Below, in pieces: positions 7,829-62,120 of a stretch of 64,000 nucleotides of DNA. The notes under the pieces were generated by a model. That model was not told the origin of the DNA. It worked only from the letters and a program-made list of their open reading frames with translations, and did not search any database. Position 1 is the stretch's first letter; the number at the start of each line of letters is the position of its first letter. This DNA is from Chthoniobacter flavus. Lineage in GTDB: Bacteria; Verrucomicrobiota; Verrucomicrobiia; Chthoniobacterales; Chthoniobacteraceae. The translations under genes and the position numbers were made by a program. Where the stretch lies: the NCBI GenBank assembly GCA_945861435.1, contig CAMAUX010000002.1:62001-126000 (forward strand), written 5' to 3'.

Positions 7829-7979
7829 CTACTCCTACTCCTACTTTTACTTTTACTTTTACTTTTACTCCCTGCCCGCCCTCACGGCTGCATGGCGTGA
7901 GGTGAAGTGAGGAGTAAAAGTAGGAGTGCCAGTAAGAGTAAGAGTAAGAGTAAGAGTAAGAGTAAAAGTAAGAGAAAAG
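7829..7979. repeat. Inverted arrays of TACTTT/GTAAGA hexamers around a hairpin
   Basis: About seven TCCTAC/TTTTAC hexamers (7829-7870) face about nine GTARRAG-type hexamers (7909-7979) in inverted orientation. A 15-bp perfect stem pairs 7837-7851 with 7913-7927. Inside it a second stem pairs CCTCACG (7880-7886) with CGTGAGG (7896-7902). The structure lies between the converging ends of the LRR gene and the DUF1552 gene and could act as a bidirectional terminator. Confidence 0.85.
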
Positions 7980-13050: not shown

Positions 13051-13122
13051 GGCTCTTACTCTTACTCTTACTCTTACTCTTACTCTTACTCTTACTCGTA
13101 TTGTTCGGGAGTAAGAGTAAGA
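13051..13122. repeat. CTTACT hexamer array with 14-bp stem hairpin
   Basis: Seven consecutive CTTACT-type hexamers are followed by an 11-nt loop and the inverse repeat. TCTTACTCTTACTC (13084-13097) pairs perfectly with 13109-13122. The array sits upstream of the SGNH esterase gene (-) and upstream of the DUF1810 gene (+), so it lies in a divergent promoter region rather than at a gene end. Confidence 0.9.
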
Positions 13123-14092: not shown

Positions 14093-15418
14093 TTATTGTA
14101 TCGGCAGGTTCAGTTCGATTCGGGAGTCGCCGCGGAGGACTGTGGCGCGGACCGTTTCGCCGGGGAGATGTTTGGTGATCAAGTGGCCCATGAGACCGCT
14201 CTCGCTGATGCGGGTTGTGAGATTGTCGATGGCGACGAGAACGTCGTCTTTGCGAAAGCCGGCGTGTTTGGCTGCGGCGTGCAGGCCGTATTCGCCGGCA
14301 TGTTTGACGAGGAGGGCCATGCTTTCGCGAGGCAGATTGCGGCTGTTGCGTTCGTCGTCCTGAAGGTCCTCGAGGCGCAGGCCGCCGAGGGCCATGCCGC
14401 GCAGTTGCCAGGATCCCACGCGTGCTGAGATCTCGCTCTTTTGGCGCCAGCCCGCATCGAGGGTGACGAGCAGTTCCCGCGAGGTGCCCGCCCGCGCGAT
14501 GTTTAAGATGAGGAGGCCGCTCTCCGGGGAACGATGGAGCGCCCATGCGAAGTCGGCTACGGAGATGAGGGGAGTTCCGTTGAGCGCGACGATGTCGTCA
14601 TCGGTTTGAACACCGGCCCGCGCGGCGGGTGAGTCTGGGGTGACTGCGGCGACGCGGCGTGGTTGAGCCGGGTCGAGTGAGATGCCCACGGTCTCGGGCG
14701 GCGGCATGGGGAAGAGGAGCTCGGGCGGGATGGGTTTGCCTTGGTTCCGGTAGGAGGCGCGGAAGGCTTCGCCGACTTGGTGGCAGTGGACGCAGCTCTG
14801 GACGACTTTGCCGCTCCAGTCCAGTTCGCGCGTGTACTTGTCGGCGAGTGAAGGGATTTCCACCGGTATCTTGGCTGGAGGAGGCGGGCATTGCTTCGGG
14901 ACGAGTGCTTGTTTGTTGGTGGGATAGCTGCGGTGTAGTGCGAGAACGCTCGTGAGCGCGGCTTTGAATCCGGCGGTGGAAGTGTCTGCTGAGTCTTTCT
15001 GGTGCTGCCAGGAGCCGAAGCGCCCGTAGATGGTGCGGTCGGCATGGAAGAAGAGGGTGGAAAGGGAGAGGTCGTAATCGAACTGGAAGAGGGAGAGGTC
15101 GATGGCGTTGGCGTTGATGAGGCGCACGCAGACAAATTGGTCGAGGAGGGGTTGGAGTTCTGCGGCGTTGAGGATGCCGGCGTCGATGCCCATGCAGCTT
15201 TCACAGGGGATGCAGCGCAGCAGGACGAGCAGCGGCTTGCCTGTTCTGGCGGCTTCGGCGAAGCCGCGGTCGATGTCGTTGTAGATCCAGCGCTCGTCCT
15301 TGGACATGGCTGCGCGGTCGCCGCGTACCGCTCCCTCGCGGTCTTTGACGGCTGCCGCAGGAACGGGAGTGGAGAGGGTGGTGAGCAGTGCCAGAAGGAG
15401 GAGGGGAAGGGTCTTCAT
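14093..15418 (-). CDS. Secreted thioredoxin-like protein with two PDZ-like domains
   Basis: 441 residues with a signal peptide (about 1-23). Residues about 38-165 resemble a thioredoxin fold with the Cys cluster CIPCESC in place of CxxC. A single CVHCH near residue 210 is a possible haem c site. One PDZ domain follows (PRRVAAVTPDSPAARAGVQ and DDIVALNG), and a second is near the C-terminus (AAKHAGFRKDDVLVAIDN). Similar Trx-PDZ proteins occur in Planctomycetes and Verrucomicrobiota with unknown function. It may shuttle thiols or act as an envelope chaperone adapter. Next upstream (153 bp) is an S41-like protein, so the two may be linked. Confidence 0.75.
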   Translation of the reverse strand: MKTLPLLLLALLTTLSTPVPAAAVKDREGAVRGDRAAMSKDERWIYNDIDRGFAEAARTGKPLLVLLRCIPCESCMGIDAGILNAAELQPLLDQFVCVRLINANAIDLSLFQFDYDLSLSTLFFHADRTIYGRFGSWQHQKDSADTSTAGFKAALTSVLALHRSYPTNKQALVPKQCPPPPAKIPVEIPSLADKYTRELDWSGKVVQSCVHCHQVGEAFRASYRNQGKPIPPELLFPMPPPETVGISLDPAQPRRVAAVTPDSPAARAGVQTDDDIVALNGTPLISVADFAWALHRSPESGLLILNIARAGTSRELLVTLDAGWRQKSEISARVGSWQLRGMALGGLRLEDLQDDERNSRNLPRESMALLVKHAGEYGLHAAAKHAGFRKDDVLVAIDNLTTRISESGLMGHLITKHLPGETVRATVLRGDSRIELNLPIQ

Positions 15419-15571: not shown

Positions 15572-16708
15572 TTAGCGCGCGCGGTTTTCTGCGCTTTTTG
15601 CGGCGGAGTTTTTGGGTGGCTTCGGAGAGGGGGTGTAAACGCCGAGGCTGATGCAGAGGTCGATGGCGCGCTGGAGTGCTGTGTCTTGCGTGGAGGGGGC
15701 GTTTTTTTCGCGGAGGCTGCGGGACTGTGCCCAGTCGCGCTCGGGGTCTGAACCCGCGACGAGCGCGGCTTCGTTGAGGCGCGGGCGTTCGGGTTCGGCG
15801 AGGACTTGGAGGATGCCTTTTTCCGTGGCGGCTTGGAGTGCGCTGGCTGTGGTTTCCGGGGACATCCGAGCGGTGAGGTCGGGTTTGAGGCCGTTTGGGA
15901 AGAGGGTGGATTTGTCGGAGAGTTCGACGCGGGCGGTGGGGATGCGCAGAAGTTTGCCGCTGGGAAGTGGCATGTCGGAAAATTGGACGGCGAGTCCGCT
16001 GGTGGTGTCGCCGATGACGATCGCTTTGGCCTGAATGCGGAGGACGCCGGCGATGATTTCCGGGGCGCCGGCATCGAGCGCATGGACGAGCACGGTGAGC
16101 GGGCCGCGGAAGCGCGGTTCTTCGCGAGCGGAGAAGAGGCGGTCGTCCTTGGGGTCGGAAGTTTGAACGCGGAAGAGGAGTTTGCCTTTGGGGATGAAGC
16201 GGCGGCAGATATCGGCGGCGAGTTCCCACTGGCTGCTGGGGGCGGTTGCGCGGAGGTCGAGGACGATGGCGGAGATGCCCTTTTCCGTCATGCCTTGGAG
16301 AGCGGTGTCGAGGTCCGCGACGTGGTCGGCGGTGAGGGAGCCAAGGCGGAGGTAGCCGATTTTGCCATCGACGGCATCCATGTGAAAGGGGGTGGCGTCT
16401 TCGGTTTGGGCTGCGGTGGCTGGGAGGAGGCGGACTCCGGGGGCGAGTTGGGTGAGGAGTGCGGCTACGGCGTCGCGGTTGGAGCCGGGGTCCGTGATGG
16501 AGTCGCGCTGGAGGTGGTGGGTGCGCAGCAGGGGGCCGATTTGTGCGAGGTCTTCTTCCGAGCACTCGGCGAGGAGGCGGGAGGTGGTTTCCGCAGGGGA
16601 GGTGGGGCCTGTGCGAAATTGTGGGAGTTCCGCCTGCGAGGCGCACTGGAGGAGGAGAAGCAGTGCGAGGGCGAGGAGCCGCAGGGAGAAGCCGTGGAAG
16701 GGCGTCAT
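15572..16708 (-). CDS. S41-like (C-terminal processing) pseudopeptidase, secreted
   Basis: 378 residues with a signal peptide (about 1-26). The core at about 110-300 resembles the S41 fold: GKIGYLRLGSL, then GISAIVLDLRATAPSS, then the block VLVHALDAGAPEIIAG. In active members the last block reads SASASE with the middle Ser catalytic; here the aligned residue is Gly214. The catalytic Lys of the FGKG block aligns with Leu239 (GDTTSGLA). No PDZ domain is visible. It is therefore probably not proteolytic and may be a binding protein. It lies between purD and the PDZ/thioredoxin gene on the same strand. Confidence 0.7.
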   Translation of the reverse strand: MTPFHGFSLRLLALALLLLLQCASQAELPQFRTGPTSPAETTSRLLAECSEEDLAQIGPLLRTHHLQRDSITDPGSNRDAVAALLTQLAPGVRLLPATAAQTEDATPFHMDAVDGKIGYLRLGSLTADHVADLDTALQGMTEKGISAIVLDLRATAPSSQWELAADICRRFIPKGKLLFRVQTSDPKDDRLFSAREEPRFRGPLTVLVHALDAGAPEIIAGVLRIQAKAIVIGDTTSGLAVQFSDMPLPSGKLLRIPTARVELSDKSTLFPNGLKPDLTARMSPETTASALQAATEKGILQVLAEPERPRLNEAALVAGSDPERDWAQSRSLREKNAPSTQDTALQRAIDLCISLGVYTPSPKPPKNSAAKSAENRAR

Positions 16709-16720
16709 GAGGCGGGAAGC

Positions 16721-17989
16721 CTACGATGCGAGGCCCTTTGCCGCAATGTCGCGGCGGAACTGTGCGCCTTCAAAACTGATCAGGTCGACGGCCTTGTAGG
16801 CGGCGGACTGCGCATCCTTGAGGGTGTCGCCGATGGCGGTGACGCCGAGCACGCGGCCGCCAGCGGTGAGGAGGACTCCCTCGCGCCGCTGGGTTCCTGC
16901 GTGGAAGACGGTGATGCCTGCGTGGAGTTTTTCGCAGCCATGGATGGGCTTGCCGTTTTCGTAGGTGCCCGGGTATCCGGCGGAGGCCATGACGACGCAG
17001 ACGGCGGCTTGGGTTTTCCAAGCGGGAGCGGTCTGGTGGAGGCGTTGGTCGACGGTGGCTTCGAGGAGGTCGAGGAGGTCGCCGTCGAGGAGTGGGAGGA
17101 GAACCTGGGTTTCGGGATCGCCGAACCGGCAGTTGAATTCGAGGACTCGCGGGCCGTCGGCGGTGACCATGAGGCCTGGGAAAAGCATGCCTCGGTAATC
17201 GATGCCGTCGGCTTGGAGGCCTGCGAGGAAGCGGTCGAGGACTTCGGTGCGGATGCGGGCTTGGAGGGCGGGTGAGAGGAGGCGGGAGGGTGGGCTGAAA
17301 GTGCCCATGCCGCCGGTGTTGGGGCCCTGATCGTTGTCGAAGATGCGTTTGTGGTCCTGTGCGCCGGGGAAGAGGACGTAGTCGCGGCCGTCGACGAGTG
17401 CGTGGATGGAGCATTCCTCGCCTTGGAGGAATTCCTCGATGAGGACGCGGCATCCGGCATCGCCGAACCTGCGTTCGTCCATGATCTCGGTGATGGCGGA
17501 GAGTGCGGTGGCCTTGTCCTCGGCGATGATGACGCCTTTGCCAAGGGCGAGTCCGTCGGCTTTGACGACGAGCGGGTATTTCGCGTCTTCGCAGAATTGG
17601 CGGGCCTTGGAGCTGTCGTCGAAGCTGCGGGAGAAGGCGGTGGGGATGCCGTGCCGGAGCATGAATTCCTTGGCGTAGACCTTGGAGGATTCGAGTCGTG
17701 CAGCGCTCTGGCGCGGGCCGAAGATGCGGAGACCTGCGGCTTCGAAGCGGTCGACGATGCCTGCGGCAAGGGCGTCATCGGGGCCGACCACGGTGAGGTC
17801 GATTTTTTCGTTCTGGGCGAAGTCCAGGAGGGCGTTGTGGTCGCTGATTTTGAGGGGGACGCAGGTGGCGAGTTCTGCGATGCCGGCATTTCCCGGGGCG
17901 CAGAAGATCTGGGTGACGCGCGGGGACTGGCGCAGTTTCCAGACGAGGGCGTGTTCGCGGCCGCCGCCACCGATGACAAGGATCTTCAT
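16721..17989 (-). CDS. purD: Phosphoribosylamine-glycine ligase
   Basis: 422 residues from the ATG at 17989; a TTG two codons earlier is possible but the family starts MKILVIGGGGREHA. The enzyme joins glycine to 5-phosphoribosylamine with ATP in purine synthesis. Family blocks seen: GPDDALAAGIVD, VVKADGLALGKGV (ATP-grasp), DNDQGPNTGGMG, and EFNCRFGDPETQ with metal and ATP ligands. Full length, all domains present (N, ATP-grasp, C). It lies between two pseudoprotease genes on the same strand, with 12 bp to the S41-like gene downstream and 98 bp from the HtrA-like gene upstream. There is no other purine gene in the window. Confidence 0.97.
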   Translation of the reverse strand: MKILVIGGGGREHALVWKLRQSPRVTQIFCAPGNAGIAELATCVPLKISDHNALLDFAQNEKIDLTVVGPDDALAAGIVDRFEAAGLRIFGPRQSAARLESSKVYAKEFMLRHGIPTAFSRSFDDSSKARQFCEDAKYPLVVKADGLALGKGVIIAEDKATALSAITEIMDERRFGDAGCRVLIEEFLQGEECSIHALVDGRDYVLFPGAQDHKRIFDNDQGPNTGGMGTFSPPSRLLSPALQARIRTEVLDRFLAGLQADGIDYRGMLFPGLMVTADGPRVLEFNCRFGDPETQVLLPLLDGDLLDLLEATVDQRLHQTAPAWKTQAAVCVVMASAGYPGTYENGKPIHGCEKLHAGITVFHAGTQRREGVLLTAGGRVLGVTAIGDTLKDAQSAAYKAVDLISFEGAQFRRDIAAKGLAS

Positions 17990-18087
17990 AGGCAAGGGCC
18001 GGGGACAGTAGGGGAAGGGCGCGGGAAGATCAACGTGCGCTGGCGCGAAAATCAGGGCGGCGACCGATGGCGTGCGCCCGGTGTCGT

Positions 18088-19143
18088 TCAGGGCACGATG
18101 CTGTTGACGGGGATGCCGGAGGGGAGTCGGGGCCGGGGGGGGCGGGTTTCGGAGTGGAGAGGATGGTCTTCCGGGAGGAGGCTGAGTTCGATTTCGCGGT
18201 GGTCACGAGCCACACGGACGGGGACTGGGTCGGATGCGGTGAGGTAGAAGCAGGCATCGAGGACGTCCTCGATTTCGACGATTTTCCGGGTGCCGATCTG
18301 GAGGAGGACGTCGTCTTTTTGGAGGCCGGCTTTTTGTGCCGGGCCGTTGTGGACGGTTTCATCGATGCGGGCGTGGGAGCCGGACTGGGGTTCGGGAGAG
18401 GAGGCGACGTGGAGGCCGATCCAGCCATGGCGGATTTCGCCGAAGCGGAGGTAGTCGCGGTGAACTTTTTCGGCGGCCTCGATGGGGAGGGCGAAGGCGG
18501 CGCTGCCGGAGTCGAGGCTGGCGATGAGCATTCCGACGACCTCCCCGTTCATGTTGAGGAGGGGGGATCCGCCTTCGCCGCGCTGCACGGGGAGGTTTGC
18601 GCGGATGTGGAAGACGGCGAAGAATCGGCCAAGGTGCTGGAAGTCGAAGCCGCCGATGGTGCCGAAGCTGGGGGTGAGCGGGAGGTCCATGGGATACCCG
18701 AGTGCGATGACGGGTGATGCCATGTGGAGCTGGCGCGTATTGCCCGAGGGGAGGAATGGGGTGTGGGCGTCGACCTTCAGGATGGCGATGCCGGTGCGGC
18801 GGTCGGCGGTGAGGCGGCGTGCGGGGTGGCGGGTGTTTTTCTGGCAGACGACAATTTCCTGGGACTCACCGCCGACGGTGTAGGAGGTGAAGAGGGTGCC
18901 GTTGGCATCGACGAAGAATCCGGTGCCTGCGAGGGGGCCGTTGGTGTCGATGGCTTCGATGCGGATGACGGCTTGCCTGCTGTGTTCGAAGATGGAGAGG
19001 ATCTCTTGGGTGATGGCTTCGATGGCCTGCTGTCGGTCAACTTGGGCAGCTGTCTGGGCATCCGGCGGGGGGGACTGGGCCCAGAGTCCGAGTGGGGCGG
19101 CCCAAATGAGAATCCAGAGTCTAAAAGCTGAAGGACGGCTCAT
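18088..19143 (-). CDS. HtrA/DegP-like pseudoprotease with PDZ domain, secreted
   Basis: 351 residues with a signal peptide (about 1-22), a trypsin-like domain (about 60-225) and one PDZ domain (about 232-325: GWIGLHV, then GPAQKAGLQKDDVLLQIG). The chymotrypsin-type fold is recognisable, but each triad position is changed: LFTSYTVGG has Thr89 where TNxHVV carries His; RRTGIAILKV has Gly118 where tDLAvLKv carries Asp; GEGGSPLL has Gly191 where GNSGGPL carries Ser. It should not cleave peptides, but may bind substrates or misfolded protein. The start overlaps the end of the upstream membrane protein by 23 bp, after an ECF sigma gene, like the rpoE-rseA-mucD order. Confidence 0.8.
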   Translation of the reverse strand: MSRPSAFRLWILIWAAPLGLWAQSPPPDAQTAAQVDRQQAIEAITQEILSIFEHSRQAVIRIEAIDTNGPLAGTGFFVDANGTLFTSYTVGGESQEIVVCQKNTRHPARRLTADRRTGIAILKVDAHTPFLPSGNTRQLHMASPVIALGYPMDLPLTPSFGTIGGFDFQHLGRFFAVFHIRANLPVQRGEGGSPLLNMNGEVVGMLIASLDSGSAAFALPIEAAEKVHRDYLRFGEIRHGWIGLHVASSPEPQSGSHARIDETVHNGPAQKAGLQKDDVLLQIGTRKIVEIEDVLDACFYLTASDPVPVRVARDHREIELSLLPEDHPLHSETRPPRPRLPSGIPVNSIVP

Positions 19144-19741
19144 AGCTTACCGGGCGTGCATCGATGATGTAACGCGTGGAGCGCTGGATTTGCGGGCGCT
19201 GGGGAAGGGACTGGGATGGGGAGGTGGAGGTGCGGATGGCCTGCGTGCGCTGCATGGAACGCAAAGTTTCGAGGTGTTCTAGGGGGGGCCAGGGATCACC
19301 CAGCAGCGTGTGTTGGGGTTGCGTCTGTAGCTGTCCCTGCGCGTGCATATGCAACGGTGCATGCGATTGGACCGGCATGGTCGTCTGGATCGCTTGGGGT
19401 ACGGGGAATGGGGAGGAGGGTGCGATTGCGGGCGGCGCAGCCTCTGCGATTTCGGCGCCCCCGGGGTTGGTGGCGGTTGGTGGATCCTGCGGGAGCATTC
19501 GGAGTCCGAGGAAGCCTGCAAGAGCGAATCCGGCGGTGGCACCGGCGTAGCGCAGGGCGGGGGTGTTGTGGCTGCTGAAGAAGGTGCGGAAGCGGTCGAG
19601 GGCGATGTTCCAGAGTGATTTGCGCAGGAGTTCTGTGCGCTGGTTTTGTCGGATTTGGATGAGGAGGCGGTCGTAGTAGCCTTCGGGAGGCTGCTCGTAG
19701 CGTTTGAGCCGAAGGAGGGCTCGCAGTTGATCGTCGTTCAT
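19121..19741 (-). CDS. Single-span membrane protein, probable anti-sigma factor
   Basis: 206 residues. It has a basic, helical cytoplasmic N-terminus (about 1-60) and one membrane helix near 65-83 (GATAGFALAGFLGLRML). A long low-complexity periplasmic tail rich in Pro, Gln, His and Thr follows. The type-II orientation and length of the N-terminal domain fit a membrane anti-sigma factor that binds the sigma factor encoded 34 bp upstream. I see no HxxxCxxC zinc motif, so it is not of the ZAS class. The C-terminus overlaps the start of the HtrA-like gene. The call depends on gene order. Confidence 0.55.
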   Translation of the reverse strand: MNDDQLRALLRLKRYEQPPEGYYDRLLIQIRQNQRTELLRKSLWNIALDRFRTFFSSHNTPALRYAGATAGFALAGFLGLRMLPQDPPTATNPGGAEIAEAAPPAIAPSSPFPVPQAIQTTMPVQSHAPLHMHAQGQLQTQPQHTLLGDPWPPLEHLETLRSMQRTQAIRTSTSPSQSLPQRPQIQRSTRYIIDARPVSYEPSFSF

Positions 19742-19775
19742 GCGTTCTGGGCGGGTGCTGGAGCGGGAGGGGGCG

Positions 19776-20366
19776 TCAGTTTTGGTGGAACTCGCCGAGG
19801 GAGGCTTGGAGTTGGCGGTGGGCGTAGAAGAGGCGGGAGCGAACGGTGCCTTCGGAGATGCCGAGGATGGATGCGATTTCGGCGTGGGGCATGCCTTGGA
19901 TATCGAACATAGTCACCACGGCGCGGTGTTCGTGGGAGAGTTTCTGCATGGCCTCGTTGAGGCGTTTTTGGAGTTCCTTGAGATTGGTTTCGCGGACGGG
20001 GGTGGAGCCTGCGGTGAGTTCCATGAACTCCTTGTCGTGTTCGACGTTGGCGTCGATGTCGTCGAGGCTGAGATGGCTGCGGCGGCCGCGTTTTTTGAGG
20101 AAGTTGATGCTCATGTTGACGGCGATGGCGTGCATCCAGGTGGGGAAGCTGGAGCGGCCGCGGAAGCCGTTGATGGAGCGGAAGGCCTTGGCCCAGATGT
20201 CTTGGAGGAGGTCGTTGGTGTCCTCGTGGTTGGAGGTCATGTTGTAGACGAGGCCGTAGAGCCTTGGGCTGTACTTGACCACCAGTTGGTCGAATGCGGC
20301 CGGGTCGCCGTTCTGGGAACGTGCGATGAGTTGGTCGTCTTCGCGGCGGCTATCCTGCTCCTGCAT
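19776..20366 (-). CDS. ECF sigma factor
   Basis: The ATG at 20366 gives 196 residues; the frame extends upstream but only this start fits the family. Region 2 lies at about 22-95 (FDQLVVKYSPRLYGLVY, DLLQDIWAKAFRSINGFRG, FPTWMHAIAVNMSINFLKK). Region 4 lies at about 130-190 (LSHEHRAVVTMFDIQGMPHAEIASILGISEGTVRSRL). No region 3 is present, as expected for the ECF group. It directs RNA polymerase to envelope-stress or other extracytoplasmic promoters and is held by a membrane anti-sigma. The next genes downstream are a candidate anti-sigma and an HtrA-like protein. Which signals activate it cannot be read. Confidence 0.93.
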   Translation of the reverse strand: MQEQDSRREDDQLIARSQNGDPAAFDQLVVKYSPRLYGLVYNMTSNHEDTNDLLQDIWAKAFRSINGFRGRSSFPTWMHAIAVNMSINFLKKRGRRSHLSLDDIDANVEHDKEFMELTAGSTPVRETNLKELQKRLNEAMQKLSHEHRAVVTMFDIQGMPHAEIASILGISEGTVRSRLFYAHRQLQASLGEFHQN

Positions 20367-20476
20367 GGTGGCGGACTTCCTACCAGCGAGCGCCCCGGTT
20401 GCGCACGGAGATTGAGCCTCGGGCAGCGTGGGGAGGAGGATGGTGGGGAGCGCCTGAGTGAGGCTGGGTGGCATGG

Positions 20477-21151: not shown

Positions 21152-21190
21152 ATGCTCGTTGAATGGGAGGTGTTCGAGGGGTTTAGAGAG

Positions 21191-21244
21191 TGGGGGGTGT
21201 GGGGGGTGTGGGGGGTGTGGGGGGTGTGGGGGGTGTGGGGGGTG
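21191..21244. repeat. Tandem TGTGGGGGG (9 bp) array, about 6 copies
   Basis: TGTGGGGGG is repeated about six times without interruption in the 267-bp spacer between folB and the metallopeptidase gene. The rest of the spacer contains an 8-bp inverted repeat (21326-21333 with 21382-21389), which could terminate folB transcription on the - strand. Confidence 0.9.
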
Positions 21245-27082: not shown

Positions 27083-27116
27083 GCTTTTGGGGCTAAGGCC
27101 GATGGGCTTGCCCCTT

Positions 27117-27180
27117 GGTCGGGATGGTCGGGATGGTCGGGATGGTCGGGATGGTTGAGAGGGTGGTTGAGAGGGTGGTT
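27117..27180. repeat. Tandem GGTCGGGAT x4 and GGTTGAGAGGGT x2
   Basis: Four exact copies of the 9-bp unit GGTCGGGAT (27117-27152) continue directly into two copies of GGTTGAGAGGGT (27153-27176) and a partial third. The array lies 35 bp after the secDF stop, in the 215-bp spacer before the FmdB gene. Confidence 0.95.
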
Positions 27181-61685: not shown

Positions 61686-62120
61686 TCAACGGTAGGAGTA
61701 TAACAAGCAGAACGTCGTGAGCTCTGGCGAGGAGGTGTCGACCTTCAGGTAGTAGGGTCCGCTCGTCTTCGGGGCGAATGCGGCGGCCGCACGGCCGGGT
61801 TCAGCGAGTCGCTCTCCTTCCATGAGCCTGCCTGTTTCATCGTAAACAGTCAGGGTCACTGGGATGGAAGGATCCGCAGAGGCGAGGGAGAACCAGTACA
61901 GATTGCCGGCGTGCAGGTTGACTTCGACGAGGCGTGGCCTGCCTGCGGCCACCGTTTCGCACCAGTGCCCGTCCCGGAGTCGGAATCCGTCATTGGAGAA
62001 AGCGCCCGCCAGTTCCAAGGCGAGGCGGCGGGCTTCGGTCTTGCGGTTGTCTTGGGCGTGAAGCGGACGGGGGTTCGCGAACAGGGCGAGGAGTCCAGCG
62101 AGGAGAAGGGCCGTTTTCAT
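61686..62120 (-). CDS. Small secreted protein with PPC-like beta sandwich
   Basis: 144 residues with a signal peptide (about 1-22). The second half resembles a bacterial pre-peptidase C-terminal (PPC) beta-sandwich: GNLYWFSLASADPSIPVTLTVYD, then FAPKTSGPYYLKVDT. It contains two Cys (GHWCET and TTFCLL) that may pair. PPC domains bind substrates or are left on secreted proteases. The ATG overlaps the previous gene stop by 3 bp, so the two are coupled. It is not itself an enzyme. Confidence 0.75.
   Translation of the reverse strand: MKTALLLAGLLALFANPRPLHAQDNRKTEARRLALELAGAFSNDGFRLRDGHWCETVAAGRPRLVEVNLHAGNLYWFSLASADPSIPVTLTVYDETGRLMEGERLAEPGRAAAAFAPKTSGPYYLKVDTSSPELTTFCLLYSYR

Follow-up and report, generated by a model that had tools for sequence, protein, structure and literature searches.

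Architecture of the sigma locus

On the minus strand of contig CAMAUX010000002.1 of Chthoniobacter flavus (assembly GCA_945861435.1, 5.35 Mb; class Verrucomicrobiia), three genes run from position 20366 down to position 18088 of a 64,000-nucleotide window, that is, the whole stretch of DNA analysed here (contig positions 62,001 to 126,000). They encode, in this order, an extracytoplasmic function (ECF) sigma factor, a single-span membrane protein resembling an anti-sigma factor, and an HtrA/PDZ protein that has lost its catalytic triad and whose possible regulatory role is the subject of this work. The coordinates, the strands and the 23-bp overlap between the second and the third gene, as given in a first-pass annotation of the window, are correct. 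Specifically, within the overlap one DNA stretch encodes both the YEPSFSF-stop end of the anti-sigma-like protein and the MSRPSAF start of the HtrA-like protein.

The first gene (19776-20366) encodes a predicted RpoE/AlgU-like sigma factor of 196 amino acids, in which both Pfam regions are recognised (Sigma70_r2, 4e-16; r4_2, 2e-14). Its best solved relatives by profile include sigma-H/AlgU of Pseudomonas aeruginosa (6in7) and RpoE of Escherichia coli (1or7), and its identity with the latter is 35%; its score lies under the NCBIfam RpoE equivalog cut-off. With regions 2 and 4 in place and RpoE and AlgU as its nearest relatives, the protein is classified by sequence as an RpoE-type ECF sigma factor, and an orthologue is present in 254 of the 286 genomes of the class. 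In several relatives, inspection by eye showed a TGnTAnnAAG-like element, which resembles an extended -10 box, some 20-30 nt ahead of the start of the sigma gene (around 20367-20400 of the window, minus strand). Dyad counts, made in search of an autoregulatory promoter of the ECF type in front of this gene, were swamped by the coding sequence of the upstream gene and gave no result.

The second gene (19121-19741, minus strand, 206 amino acids) belongs to no known family, and its product is considered a candidate anti-sigma factor by virtue of position and topology. In the structural model, which is of low confidence (predicted local distance difference test, pLDDT, 62.9), three cytoplasmic helices (residues 3-57) are followed by a single helix (residues 61-81) and an unstructured tail (residues 82-206). 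The helix at residues 61-81, encoded at 19499-19561, is the predicted transmembrane span, and a hydrophobic run around YAGATAGFALAGFLGLRML supports this assignment. Moreover, the gene always lies directly downstream of the sigma gene in the loci examined. As far as topology and position can tell, the protein has the traits of a membrane anti-sigma factor: putative sigma-binding helices, one span, a predicted periplasmic tail and a gene adjacent to that of the sigma factor.

The third gene (18088-19143, minus strand) encodes 351 amino acids arranged as an N-terminal signal-like segment, a trypsin-like domain (Pfam Trypsin_2, 1e-14) and one PDZ domain. Its AlphaFold model (pLDDT 88.1; predicted template modelling score, pTM, 0.81) matches DegP 8f0a with Z 32.5 and a root-mean-square deviation of 2.4 over 284 residues, and DegQ 4ynn with Z 32.3. 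With respect to the S1C/HtrA family, the fold with its trypsin-like domain and PDZ is present and the His-Asp-Ser triad is absent. Within the pseudo-catalytic domain (18529-18927), Thr89 (18877-18879), Gly118 (18790-18792) and Gly191 (18571-18573) align exactly with the His, Asp and Ser of the solved MucD and DegQ structures in the PDB and of two paralogues of the same genome (L176 and L177), which retain all three residues; the triad loss reported in the first-pass annotation is thereby borne out. Among 120 distinct orthologues, taken from genomes of the same order, from 80 loci with organism names, from other families of the class and from one genome outside it, the catalytic His and Asp are never found (the latter being replaced by Gly in 107 and by Asn in 13), and Ser occurs in four, where it stands alone. 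The full triad is also missing in all 13 further loci of other families that contain the gene. Since the loss extends across orthologues and the HtrA fold is modelled with confidence, the gene encodes an old, conserved pseudoprotease and does not reflect an error of sequencing or assembly. In other words, this is an HtrA pseudoprotease (pseudo-HtrA), with its fold kept, its triad lost and its gene conserved, and the HtrA partner of this RpoE/RseA-type switch is catalytically dead wherever it is found.

Conservation is strong near the pseudo-active site (G189, E/Q190, G192, H179 and R181). In the PDZ domain (18175-18432; Pfam PDZ_2/PDZ), the carboxylate loop GWxG, which reads G240-W-I-G243 in the window (18415-18426), is also kept, with W241 in 115 of the 120 orthologues (Tyr in four) and G243 in 119. 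In one of the other families the protease domain is eroded further and the PDZ loop persists. In family f15 (L248-L252), in which the frames measure 285-350 amino acids, we observed a heavily eroded protease domain together with a conserved W-x-G loop and an anti-sigma factor ending in Phe.

Distribution of the locus and of the anti-sigma C-terminus

The tree comprises 180 sigma loci, of which 144 show the gene order sigma, anti-sigma, HtrA, and the module occurs in the order Chthoniobacterales, in other families of the class and in one genome outside the class; Chthoniobacter flavus Ellin428 carries it as well (L080). In the first 40 loci the gene order is kept in 39, the fortieth lacking only a detected sigma open reading frame (ORF), and in a larger set all three genes are present in 131 of 140 loci, several of the others ending at contig ends. 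A survey of relatives, proposed in the first-pass annotation as a check, finds both the gene order and the substitutions conserved.

The tail of the anti-sigma-like protein is poorly conserved save for its end, which in the order typically reads RYVLDxRPVSYExxxSF. In the window this conserved, predicted periplasmic C-terminus, RYIIDARPVSYEPSFSF-COOH (19124-19174), carries Phe at the last position (0) and at -2 and is the proposed PDZ ligand. The last residue is aromatic in all 127 distinct sequences from loci that hold the pseudo-HtrA gene (htrA+), being Phe in 120 and Tyr in 7, and its entropy is 0.31 bits, against 1.8-3.1 bits at the neighbouring positions. From the PVSY motif to the C-terminus the distance differs by 1-3 residues, and the final Phe is kept. 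In sampled loci devoid of the pseudo-HtrA gene (htrA-), an aromatic end is seen in only 6 of 36, a difference with a Fisher p of 4e-27 when kinship is ignored. Similarly, a hydrophobic residue at -2 combined with an aromatic one at 0 characterises 109 of the 127 htrA+ sequences, 3 of the 36 htrA- sequences and, among the remaining long ORFs, 1.8%. A genus placed within this family, g4 (eight genomes), retains the sigma and anti-sigma genes but has lost htrA, with no orthologue of the pseudo-HtrA; the last residue of its anti-sigma proteins is R, P, K or Q and in no case aromatic (0 of 8).

The PDZ pockets of AlgW and DegS accept aromatic residues at positions 0 and -2 (PMC8545111). To judge by its residues, the anti-sigma end matches this class of ligands, having an aromatic residue at 0 and a large hydrophobic one at -2. 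The association of an aromatic anti-sigma tail with a dead HtrA would suggest that the former enzyme now works by gripping the tail instead of cutting it.

A putative tail-binding guard and its alternatives

Most of what is known of RpoE-type stress switches comes from Proteobacteria, where the anti-sigma factor is cleaved by an active HtrA. The E. coli operon has the order rpoE-rseA-rseB, and rseB encodes a protein that stabilises the anti-sigma factor. A tail-binding guard is proposed here because rseB stands third in E. coli, because the MucB_RseB domain (PF03888) has no match anywhere in the present genome, and because that genome has, at other places, genes for an RseP-type Peptidase_M50, for active S41 proteins and for active HtrA proteins. 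With slightly more confidence than doubt, we consider the locus to be an RpoE-type envelope-stress switch in which a permanently dead HtrA would occupy the slot of rseB and act as a tail-binding guard of the anti-sigma factor. The resemblance to an rpoE-rseA-mucD layout drawn in the first-pass annotation holds in that an RpoE-like sigma operon contains an inactive HtrA, but in E. coli the gene that stands in the corresponding place is rseB. As to its proposal of decoys or ligand-binding sensors, the retained PDZ loop and the aromatic tail agree with a role in ligand binding without catalysis; "anti-sigma guard" would nevertheless be a better description than "decoy", since the likely ligand of the pseudo-HtrA is the C-terminus of the anti-sigma factor itself and since its positional counterpart is rseB.

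From the pattern of tail and PDZ loop we infer that the pseudo-HtrA probably binds the anti-sigma protein. Specifically, the anti-sigma membrane protein would hold the sigma factor in the cytoplasm and extend its disordered tail into the periplasm, where the pseudo-HtrA would dock on the hydrophobic-x-Phe-COOH end via its PDZ domain and perhaps also via its substrate groove. One step further from the data, the pseudo-HtrA, once docked, would protect the anti-sigma factor against site-1 cleavage. It would be displaced by outer-membrane proteins that are not yet assembled, the C-termini of which likewise carry a final Phe, or by some other ligand, and the anti-sigma factor would then be cut first by a different protease and afterwards by RseP. 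A bolder formulation, which we regard as tentative and on the whole doubtful, is that the DegS logic is reversed: a porin-like anti-sigma tail would clamp the dead HtrA, misassembled porin tails would compete for it, and a PDZ protein without protease activity would serve as a stress sensor throughout the class.

Several points weigh against the proposed guard. The 19121-19741 protein has no match in Pfam, NCBIfam or the PDB or by Foldseek, and its comparison with RseA by hhalign gave nothing significant (E 0.13); its putative anti-sigma role rests on position and topology. Moreover, the presence of htrA changes only about six times on the sigma tree, and with so few independent changes an independent-pairs sign test does not reach significance (median p 0.5; two pairs on well-supported branches). 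The six htrA- exceptions have a terminal Phe in L200, L241, L278 (one reduced genus, g27), L253 and L276, and a terminal Tyr in L243. Their genomes were all searched for the HtrA of the module, and the matches are of the ordinary HtrA type. The one match read residue by residue, the HtrA of L175/L322 (genus g27), has an intact H-D-S triad and could thus have become the partner of the tail in this genus, whose loci hold no pseudo-HtrA. Among other PDZ proteins, an active HtrA, Ctp or RseP might read the tail. Finally, that the pseudo-HtrA would shield the tail instead of presenting it is a guess from the gene position.

The binding pattern of PDZ loop and aromatic tail would serve equally for an adaptor, that is, for a pseudo-HtrA that binds the tail and presents it to an active protease, or forms mixed trimers with active HtrA, and so promotes sigma release. 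A precedent is MamO, a pseudoprotease needed for MamE-dependent proteolysis and whose own triad is dispensable (PMC4794232); as MamO can promote proteolysis by an active partner, the adaptor has to be kept in consideration, and active HtrA paralogues with intact H-D-S are indeed encoded in the genome. However, the operon slot is in E. coli that of a stabiliser, and no sequence evidence links a particular active HtrA to the locus, so that we judge an adaptor to be unlikely. Alternatively, a different PDZ protease (active HtrA, CtpA/Prc or RseP) might recognise the tail, and the pseudo-HtrA might be a periplasmic chaperone of the MucD kind whose only tie to the system is co-transcription. Proteins of the HtrA, S41 and M50 types, families often endowed with PDZ domains, are present in the genome, the pseudo-HtrA has high profile scores to DegP/MucD-like proteins, and the terminal Phe is retained in the reduced genus that has an intact HtrA but lacks the pseudo-HtrA. 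Yet HtrA-type paralogues also occur in htrA- genomes whose anti-sigma factor has no aromatic end, and the aromatic end accompanies the pseudo-HtrA in 127 of 127 sequences as opposed to 6 of 36 in its absence, which makes this explanation unlikelier still.

The tail could also owe its conservation to a DNA-level effect of the htrA start, in view of the overlap across YEPSFSF in the window and of the 114 loci in which an upstream overlapping start is possible. In 21 loci, however, no htrA start is possible ahead of the anti-sigma stop codon, and in all of them the anti-sigma protein still ends in Phe or Tyr; this cause, very improbable in our judgement, was rejected. Since both Phe codons and all three stops occur at anti-sigma ends, and since the aromatic end is invariant in those 21 non-overlapping loci, the constraint appears to act on the protein. 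As for catalysis, the high conservation around the pseudo-active site might be taken to mean that the HtrA is still a protease by means of relocated residues. This is hardly credible: in the aligned active-site region no invariant nucleophile lies by an invariant His and acid, the Ser, Thr and Cys positions vary, and the catalytic His and Asp are missing in 120 of 120 orthologues.

A description of such a system was not found in the open-access literature searched, which did not take in subscription papers or the ECF group database. The present case is that of an HtrA kept in an RpoE-type operon after loss of its active site, with a matching anti-sigma tail, across a large part of the class. 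Verrucomicrobiota form a large group whose members live mostly in soil and water, and this class is abundant and little studied; the finding predicts an envelope-stress sensor of these organisms. In addition, it provides a protein pair and a one-residue handle, the terminal Phe, on how a pseudoprotease can regulate.

Neighbouring features and comparison with known systems

Beside purD, the window contains an S41-like protein (15572-16708, minus strand; Pfam Peptidase_S41, 2e-19) that had been described as lacking its catalytic Ser and Lys, and this is so: here Gly stands in for Ser and Leu for Lys, and none of the orthologues read has either residue, Ser being replaced by Gly, and Lys by Glu, Gln, Leu or Arg. 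The active S41 paralogues L283 and L284 hold the Ser-Lys dyad. An orthologue match was obtained in 45 of 47 relatives, and purD lies within about 1.5 kb of the orthologue in most of the 25 loci read. The further implication that this protein belongs to the sigma system does not stand and was rejected on synteny, as the S41 gene tracks purD: its orthologues adjoin purD in most genomes and lie away from the module outside genus g1 (L031, L032), the only genus in which purD and the S41 gene adjoin it. On sequence grounds, the S41 protein is a second conserved pseudoprotease, tied by position to purine biosynthesis.

Elsewhere in the window, a Thioredoxin-7/PDZ protein is encoded at 14093-15418 on the minus strand (NCBIfam 'Trx7/PDZ domain-containing (seleno)protein', E 6e-106), with Cys in its CIPCESC motif. 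Short tandem repeats, perfect or nearly so and built of units 6-9 bases long, lie at 7912-7974 (GAGTAA x10.5), 13053-13097 (CTCTTA x7.5), 21190-21244 (GTGGGGGGT x6.1) and 27116-27155 (TGGTCGGGA x4.4).

In comparison with known systems, the locus is similar to rpoE-rseA-rseB of E. coli in having the gene of a predicted membrane anti-sigma factor in second place and that of a proposed periplasmic anti-sigma partner in third, in the 35% identity of its sigma factor to RpoE and in the RseP-type M50 protease of the genome. It differs in that the third gene encodes a catalytically dead HtrA fold and not RseB, and in the anti-sigma end, which is aromatic here and TQSQ in RseA. In the algU-mucA-mucB-mucC-mucD locus of P. 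aeruginosa, an ECF sigma factor, an anti-sigma factor and an HtrA-type gene are also gathered in one place. MucD (8k2y) is among the top profile matches of the pseudo-HtrA and keeps an intact triad in the alignment; unlike in P. aeruginosa, no protein of the MucB/RseB family was found in this genome. The sigE-rseA-htrA locus of Mycobacterium tuberculosis (Rv1221-1223) follows the same order of sigma, anti-sigma and HtrA. Unlike the pseudo-HtrA described here, the M. tuberculosis HtrA is regarded as catalytic, S-to-A mutants of it having been prepared for crystallisation. The M. tuberculosis protein carries, moreover, a large cytoplasmic domain (PMC3062566).

An HtrA pseudoprotease retained for a non-catalytic job is also represented by MamO of magnetotactic bacteria (PMC4794232). 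MamO, however, keeps His and Asp, with Thr in place of Ser, and acts in magnetosomes and in metal binding, with no sigma operon involved. With DegS and AlgW, which are PDZ-gated site-1 proteases of family S1C, the pseudo-HtrA shares the protease-PDZ architecture and the type of PDZ pocket that takes hydrophobic-x-Phe C-termini. It differs from them in the loss of the catalytic His, Asp and Ser, and in that its candidate ligand would be the anti-sigma factor itself, and not only misfolded porins.

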